Positions 39,781 to 42,168 of a DNA stretch of 64,000 nucleotides are shown here, one piece after another (the first letter of the stretch is position 1; every line of letters starts with the position of its first letter). The notes beneath the pieces are model-generated. The model saw only the letters and a program-made list of their open reading frames with translations. It was not told the DNA's origin and ran no database searches. Position numbers and translations under genes: made by a program. This DNA comes from Altererythrobacter sp. XM-24bin4 (GTDB lineage Bacteria; Pseudomonadota; Alphaproteobacteria; Sphingomonadales; Sphingomonadaceae). The DNA is taken from positions 1,866,334-1,930,333 of the forward strand of contig QCWG01000001.1 in NCBI GenBank assembly GCA_003149575.1. The letters run 5' to 3'.

Positions 39781-40380
39781 TCATTTCTTGCCCCCCACTT
39801 TGGGTTCTTCGCCCTTCATCAGGCGCCCGATATTTTCGCGGTGGAGATAGATGATCAGGCCTGCGATCGCGGCCAATACGGGGAAATACTCAGGGAAACC
39901 GAACAGCGGGGCGGCGGCAGCGGCGGCCACAACCGCGCTCATCCCGGCAAGGCTGGATATGCGAAAAATCGCAAGGATGCTGATCCAGATCGCGGCGTAA
40001 GCAAGACCAATCGGCCATGCGAGACCGAATGCCACACCTGCGTTGGTGGCAACGCCCTTCCCCCCTTTGAACTTCAGCCAAACCGGGAAACAGTGACCGA
40101 TCACAGCCGCACCCGAAGCGAAAGCGACCGTCGGGCCGCCCCACACTTGCTGCGCGATAAACACCGGCGCAAACCCCTTGGCCAAATCAAGCAGCAAGGT
40201 TGCCGCGGCCAAACCCTTGTTACCGGTGCGCAGCACGTTGGTGGCGCCGATATTGCCGCTGCCAATGCTGCGCACGTCGCCCATGCCCGCAGCTTTTGTC
40301 AGAAGCAAACCGATGGGAATCGAGCCGAGCAAATAGCCTAGAAGCGTCGCAAGAAGTATTGAGATCGAAACATCGCCAGT
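39781..40380 (-). CDS. plsY: Glycerol-3-phosphate acyltransferase PlsY
   Basis: PlsY is an inner-membrane enzyme that transfers the acyl group from acyl-phosphate to glycerol 3-phosphate. The 199-residue protein shows the three family loops: GSIPIGLL, SGNIGATNVLR and FKGGKGVAT, with five or more membrane helices. I chose the ATG at 40380 (MTGDVSIS); ATGs at 40386 and 40392 and a longer frame to 40443 exist and no start has a good Shine-Dalgarno. The broken dprA follows after 16 nt. Confidence 0.9.
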   Translation of the reverse strand, partial: TGDVSISILLATLLGYLLGSIPIGLLLTKAAGMGDVRSIGSGNIGATNVLRTGNKGLAAATLLLDLAKGFAPVFIAQQVWGGPTVAFASGAAVIGHCFPVWLKFKGGKGVATNAGVAFGLAWPIGLAYAAIWISILAIFRISSLAGMSAVVAAAAAAPLFGFPEYFPVLAAIAGLIIYLHRENIGRLMKGEEPKVGGKK

Positions 40381-40510
40381 CATGAACATATGCATAATGC
40401 AATCATTGCAATTGGACAGCACTATTATTCGTAGCGAGTCCACGCGATAAAGGGCCTAGTACCATTCGCCCCTACCTTGTCTGCGCGCAACAAATTGCTA
40501 CCGTCCAACT

Positions 40511-41314
40511 GTGGATCAGGTCTTCCCAGCCCCATCCCCGTCCGACGCAGATGAAGCGGATCTGGTTTCCCGCCTTACGTCGAAAGAGCGCGAATGCCTG
40601 AGGCGCTAGCTGAATGATGAGACCGCCAAGCAGATTGCTTTGGCGCTTGATTTATCGCACCACGCCGTCGAAAAGCGGCTCAAGTCTGCCAGAGCCAAAC
40701 TGGGCGTAGGCTCTTCGATCGAAGCCGCGCAAATGGTGGCACGCGTCGAAGGGTACGGTCAGACCGTATCCCAATCGCCGGACCTGTCAGATGCGGCAAT
40801 CGCCGGTCACACAGGACGCTCCAACTCACTGAAGATCGAAGCACTAACTATGATTATCATTCTTGCCGCATTGGTAACCGTCGCCATGCAGGCAAACCTC
40901 ACGGCGTCATCAGCCAATGAAGGCTTAAGCATCGAAGCTGACGAATTCCTGGTCGACGATTCGGGCCAGATAGAGGCACTCAGCATTTTCCGACTGACCA
41001 GCAAAGGCCCGGGGCAGGACGCCCCAACGGAAGAAGAGCTGGTCGAGTATCTTAATAGGCAGTTTCGCAAATACGACATGGATGGAAGCGGGTCGATCAC
41101 AGACACTGAAGTCCCAGATGCAGTTGCGGTTGAAGAAGATGGTAGGCCGATCATTGTTCACGATGCTCGCGCCCGAACAGAGTTCCTCGATCGCCACGAT
41201 CAGAATTCAGATGGCACCGTTAGCTATGCAGAATTCGTCGAAACCTCTCTCGCAAACTATCATAACGGTGTCGGAATCCTGGAAGTTCTGCGGGTCAAAA
41301 CGTTCCTGAAGTAA
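40511..41314 (+). pseudogene. LuxR-type HTH, membrane helix and EF-hand protein interrupted by TAG
   Basis: From a GTG at 40511 the frame encodes a LuxR/sigma-like helix-turn-helix (LTSKERECLRR, TAKQIALALDLSHHAVEKRL) with TAG at 40607-40609 between LRR and LNDE. In this kind of domain a Trp or other residue is expected there. After the stop the same frame runs 234 codons: rest of the HTH, a membrane helix (IIILAALVTVAMQANL) and two EF-hands, DMDGSGSITDTE and DQNSDGTVSYAE. A TTG at 40640 could start a product lacking HTH helix 1. It would be a membrane-tethered regulator with a calcium-binding outer domain. Intact function is doubtful. Confidence 0.65.
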
Positions 41315-41370: not shown

Positions 41371-42168
41371 ATGGCCGATGCCGCTTCACCCATTCTGCTA
41401 TTCGATTCCGGAGTCGGCGGACTGACCGTGCTGGCAGAGCTTCGCAAGATCATGCCTGATGCGCCGGTGATCTATGCTGCCGATCTGGCAGGTCTGCCCT
41501 ACGGCGAGAAATCGGAAGCGCAGATCGCTGCGCGGGTCGCTGGATTGCTGGGCCGAATGGCAGAGCGATACCAGCCGCGTCTGGCCTGCATCGCTTGCAA
41601 CACCGCGAGCACGATTGCACTTGGCATGGTACGCGATGTGCTGGAAATTCCGATTGTAGGCACGGTTCCGGCGATCAAACCGGCTGCGGCCATAAGCAAG
41701 ACAGGCGTGATTGGCTTGTTAGGCACCGCGGCAACCATTCGTCAGCCCTATGTCGACCAGCTCGAGGCAGAATTTGCCAATGGGAACAGCCTTCTGCGTC
41801 ATGCAGCGCCAGGGCTGGTCGAAGTGGCCGAAGCAAAGCTGCGCGGAGAAGCCGTCGACATCGGTGTGATCGAAGCTGCGGCGCGAAAATTGCGGGACAT
41901 GCCTGAAGGTGAACGGATCGATACAGTCGTTCTTGCCTGCACACATTTCCCTCTGCTTGAAGACGAATTGCGCGCGGCATTCGGTCCCGAGGTTCAGTTT
42001 GTTCACGGCGCGCAAGGCATAGCGCGAAGGATCGCACATTTGACACAAGGCCAGTCATTCGCAGCCAGCCAATCAAGCCGGTTCATAACCACCGGGAACG
42101 TGCAATCTGCGCAAGCCCTGTTGCCTGCGCTTAATAAACATGGTTTTTCAGGGATCGAAGCCTTCTGA
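41371..42168 (+). CDS. murI: Glutamate racemase
   Basis: MurI makes D-glutamate for peptidoglycan. The 265-residue protein has LLFDSGVGGLTVL, the first catalytic Cys76 (ACNTAS) and the second Cys190 (LACTHFPLL). It stands alone between the interrupted regulator and hemA. Confidence 0.95.
   Translation: MADAASPILLFDSGVGGLTVLAELRKIMPDAPVIYAADLAGLPYGEKSEAQIAARVAGLLGRMAERYQPRLACIACNTASTIALGMVRDVLEIPIVGTVPAIKPAAAISKTGVIGLLGTAATIRQPYVDQLEAEFANGNSLLRHAAPGLVEVAEAKLRGEAVDIGVIEAAARKLRDMPEGERIDTVVLACTHFPLLEDELRAAFGPEVQFVHGAQGIARRIAHLTQGQSFAASQSSRFITTGNVQSAQALLPALNKHGFSGIEAF

Follow-up and report, generated by a model that had tools for sequence, protein, structure and literature searches.

An in-frame TAG in the gene of a putative membrane-tethered LuxR-type regulator with EF-hands: a probable young pseudogene within a conserved plsY-murI neighbourhood

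The window, the whole stretch of 64,000 nucleotides from Altererythrobacter sp. XM-24bin4 analysed here, carries on its forward strand an interrupted gene with syntenic orthologues, hereafter gene X (40511–41314), with a GTG start, a coding frame at 40511–41311 and a TAA stop at 41312–41314. It is flanked by its conserved divergent neighbour plsY (39781–40443, reverse strand) and, on its own strand after a gap of 56 bp, by the conserved downstream neighbour murI, encoding glutamate racemase (41371–42168). The forward-strand features of gene X comprise a LuxR/GerE helix-turn-helix (HTH; residues 21–76, 40571–40738; Pfam GerE, E=1.9e-9), a predicted membrane helix (residues 107–125, 40829–40885), where the 19-residue hydropathy window reaches its maximum from residue 107 and an orthologue model has a helix at residues 102–123, and an EF-hand pair (residues 180–244; Pfam, E=2.7e-7). 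The two EF-hand loops, DMDGSGSITDTE at 41075–41110 and DQNSDGTVSYAE at 41204–41239, are found both by Pfam and in the sequence itself, and on inspection carry canonical residues at positions 1, 3, 5, 6, 8 and 12. For the window protein, GerE scored 37.4 bits against a curated cut-off of 23.5 and EF-hand_7 scored 31.3 bits against a cut-off of 30, the two models matching 12/12 and 11/12 aligned family members respectively; since both exceed their cut-offs, the combination of HTH, membrane helix and EF-hands is not a product of chance. In NCBIfam, no model matched the gene X protein at its cut-off.

In the second helix of the HTH, an in-frame TAG at 40607–40609, codon 33 of the frame, takes the place of a Trp codon (TGG) that is nearly invariant, and beyond it the frame stays open as far as 41311. 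An earlier note had described this frame with its coordinates, TAG, HTH, membrane helix and two EF-hand loops, and the lack of any further stop, from the letters alone; each of these elements is confirmed, and the same architecture is conserved in the orthologues.

At least 12 further genomes of the same genus have a relative of X at exactly this position between plsY and murI, and among named genomes the arrangement recurred in other genera, Qipengyuania aquimaris, Citromicrobium, Alteriqipengyuania and Altererythrobacter among them, with two canonical EF-hand loops in most of the X relatives recovered. A scan of the genome contigs with the window protein alone gave no match. Many genomes of the genus, with G008 and G033 as near relatives among them, lack X and have plsY directly beside murI; gene X is therefore dispensable. 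The earlier note had proposed asking which residue replaces the TAG in homologues, and the alignment gives a clear answer: Trp in all readable plsY-X-murI orthologues, except for one metagenome-assembled genome with Cys. All orthologues checked begin upstream of this position and none of the relatives aligned has a stop there, so that the TAG is species-specific. Because the orthologues carry Trp at this position and begin upstream of it, a single base change from TGG to TAG is the simplest history. Apparently homologous TAGs in G034, G077, G096, G029 and G069 were rejected, since each of those stops precedes the ATG of another paralogue.

The identical TAG is present in G002, another assembly of the species, which differs in size from the window genome (G000) and is about 1% divergent from it, with seven base differences within the frame of gene X. 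Although one wrong base would suffice to create such a stop, an assembly or sequencing error is hardly credible when it is common to two assemblies that differ in size and, by about 1%, in sequence, and we conclude for the same reason that the TAG is not a base-calling error.

The seven differences were used for the comparison of synonymous and non-synonymous change that the earlier note had suggested, and they favour inactivation. Between G000 and G002, gene X shows 6 non-synonymous substitutions and 1 synonymous (dN/dS about 2), whereas the 297 control ORFs in the 400 kb around it show 537 and 968 respectively (dN/dS 0.18); the contrast is significant (Fisher p=0.010), on few events of which some may be unpolarised. 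Intact pairs of the X family have dN/dS values of 0.17–0.47, and an intact pair of equal protein divergence has 6.5 non-synonymous to 12.5 synonymous changes (p=0.026 against the window pair). Under neutrality, at least 6 of 7 changes would be non-synonymous a third of the time, and at a dN/dS of 0.5 this would occur in 9% of cases. One of the changes is at residue 110, which is Glu in G000 and Gly in G002 and nearly all relatives. Purifying selection on gene X thus appears to have been lost after the TAG arose, a conclusion that is probabilistic since the count is as small as seven substitutions. Long-term acceleration of this copy before the TAG was considered and gained no support, the branch lengths in the HTH tree being similar (0.25 versus about 0.21).

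On this evidence, gene X of the window is most probably a young pseudogene, recently inactivated, a reading to which we assign a probability of about 0.82. A G to A change in the ancestor of the species would have converted the Trp codon at position 33, in the HTH, to TAG; protein synthesis would then stop after 32 codons, and the interrupted gene would yield no DNA-binding product, amounting to a loss of function in this species. The disabling change stands at a position where the intact orthologues carry Trp, and it is accompanied by the apparent relaxation of selection described above. Against this reading, both EF-hand loops are still canonical, a weak operator-like element is kept, only seven substitutions are available and no second disabling change was found in gene X of either G000 or G002. 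The missing second stop is nevertheless uninformative, because the chance of meeting no further stop among seven neutral changes is about 0.84. Neither homologues starting after the TAG nor signs of old decay downstream, which the earlier note had named as contrary evidence, were found. Of the three options that it offered, recent inactivation is the one that agrees with the Trp-bearing orthologues and with a dN/dS of about 2 against 0.18, whereas readthrough and a shorter product from a TTG gained no support.

Low-level readthrough of the TAG by a near-cognate Trp or Gln tRNA would produce a small amount of full-length regulator and make of the stop an attenuator. In favour of this, the frame after the stop is intact in both assemblies, and Belinky et al. 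(2021) argued from dN/dS values staying below 1 that bacteria tolerate many in-frame stops (PMC7918605). Gene X resembles those cases in its shared in-frame TAG and otherwise open frame, yet it differs from the ones called functional in its dN/dS of about 2, and its stop is found in no relative. The translation machinery speaks against readthrough as well: the 43 tRNA genes detected in the genome were all typed and none has a CUA anticodon, the release factor 1 gene prfA is present, and TAG terminates 79 of 303 ORFs, so that there is neither a UAG-reading tRNA nor a reassigned UAG. We consider readthrough improbable, and the earlier suggestion of a TAG-gated gene found no support. Slightly less probable still would be that the TAG has been retained as a switch, rare readthrough giving traces of regulator, or that an EF-hand membrane protein devoid of its HTH has been newly employed in this species.

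A shorter product lacking a working HTH could start within the frame, at TTG 40640, ATG 40733 or ATG 40850, and would buffer or sense calcium by means of the intact EF-hand loops. Yet no Shine-Dalgarno sequence is visible before any of these codons, and no orthologue begins at them. The TTG, proposed in the earlier note, would cost the protein the first half of its HTH, and the ORF from this codon shows 5 non-synonymous changes and 1 synonymous between G000 and G002. Such a product is likewise improbable, a little more so than readthrough, and the young pseudogene remains the preferred reading.

The upstream region of the intact genes holds a further element. Ten X-bearing genomes of the genus each have a single copy of the palindrome ACGGTNNRACCRTACT, always just upstream of X (for example at G026:C1:459540-459555, ahead of the X orthologue); the six X-less genomes searched have none, and its reversed control pattern has no occurrence. 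At the corresponding place, relatives from other genera have GTACCA-N4-ACCGTAC, and a similar element is present at some paralogues away from murI. These patterns suggest that the element is the putative binding site of the X protein itself. In the window, a weak copy of the operator-like element of the family, AGTACCATTCGCCCCTACCTTGT, lies at 40458–40480 on the forward strand (20.0 bits); of the elements of 28 relatives scored by leave-one-out, 25 are above this value (20.4–33) and three below. An erased operator was considered and rejected: the window looks badly eroded relative to the genus-type palindrome, but it keeps a weak copy of the form used by relatives in other genera, and operator decay was therefore dropped as evidence for a pseudogene.

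The intact family was modelled on the Erythrobacter fulvus orthologue together with 18 relatives. In the model the HTH is confident, its pLDDT exceeding 90, as is the EF-hand pair, and a membrane helix is present; at a pTM of 0.42, the mutual arrangement of these parts is not confident. Trp 31 of this protein, the counterpart of the TAG, lies within the second HTH helix (residues 22–32). A Foldseek search with the whole model matched parvalbumins and DNA-binding domains of the LuxR type, none at an E-value as low as 0.001, and the TM-scores by target length against the DNA-binding domains of GerE, LiaR and DosR were about 0.82–0.85. The X HTH is thus alike in sequence and predicted fold to the LuxR/FixJ/NarL-type domain (Pfam GerE, PF00196), but unlike these regulators it is N-terminal and membrane-tethered, with neither receiver nor autoinducer domain.

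We infer that the intact protein would be a one-component regulator tethered to the inner membrane: its N-terminal LuxR-type HTH would face the cytoplasm, and beyond a single membrane helix its EF-hand pair, in the periplasm, would probably bind calcium. Calcium would then alter DNA binding at the palindrome before X itself, and the downstream murI would probably also be affected via the promoter ahead of X and murI. The canonical EF-hand loops point to calcium sensing; judged by its domains, the family has roughly an even chance of being a calcium-responsive regulator.

Membrane-integrated one-component regulators such as ToxR and CadC have an N-terminal DNA-binding domain in the cytoplasm, joined through a single membrane helix to a sensing part in the periplasm. 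X would share this layout, with the difference that ToxR and CadC use an OmpR-like winged helix, whereas X has a LuxR-type HTH and an EF-hand pair as its sensing part; Pfam found no Trans_reg_C match in the family, the GerE and sigma-70 region 4 models matching instead. CaBP of Caulobacter vibrioides is likewise reported to be an alphaproteobacterial periplasmic EF-hand protein tied to gene regulation, but it is described as soluble and secreted, with no DNA-binding domain of its own, whereas X carries an HTH (PMC13171946). Our literature search did not find a paper describing the X family, which we regard as an uncharacterised, putative one-component calcium sensor.

The TAG itself is ordinary, the sign of a dispensable regulator being lost from a single species. 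The more interesting part is the intact family, which combines a LuxR-type HTH, a membrane helix and EF-hands and keeps its place between plsY and murI throughout Erythrobacteraceae. Should it prove responsive to calcium, it would offer a direct link from calcium to transcription of a kind rare in bacteria, beside a cell-wall gene, for which the window species and the relatives without X offer natural deletion controls.

Several related genes were met along with the family. A relative away from murI, within the stretch covered (L110 / L239, in G069), has the HTH and membrane helix with no EF-hand match. A sister HTH-membrane family without EF-hands (L258–L261, L263; LTxKEKxxLRLxLRGHDAKSSA) seems to be widespread in the genus, and the sequence upstream of it is conserved (in translation EKFGVARP..AP, followed by TAG). 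Finally, the HTH regions of E. fulvus (L211) and G012 (L084) are 97% identical, against 58% for plsY and 69% for murI, which suggests that gene X was exchanged between the two lineages by transfer or recombination. The C-terminal parts of these two proteins differ, and the sensing part appears to have been swapped within the X family.
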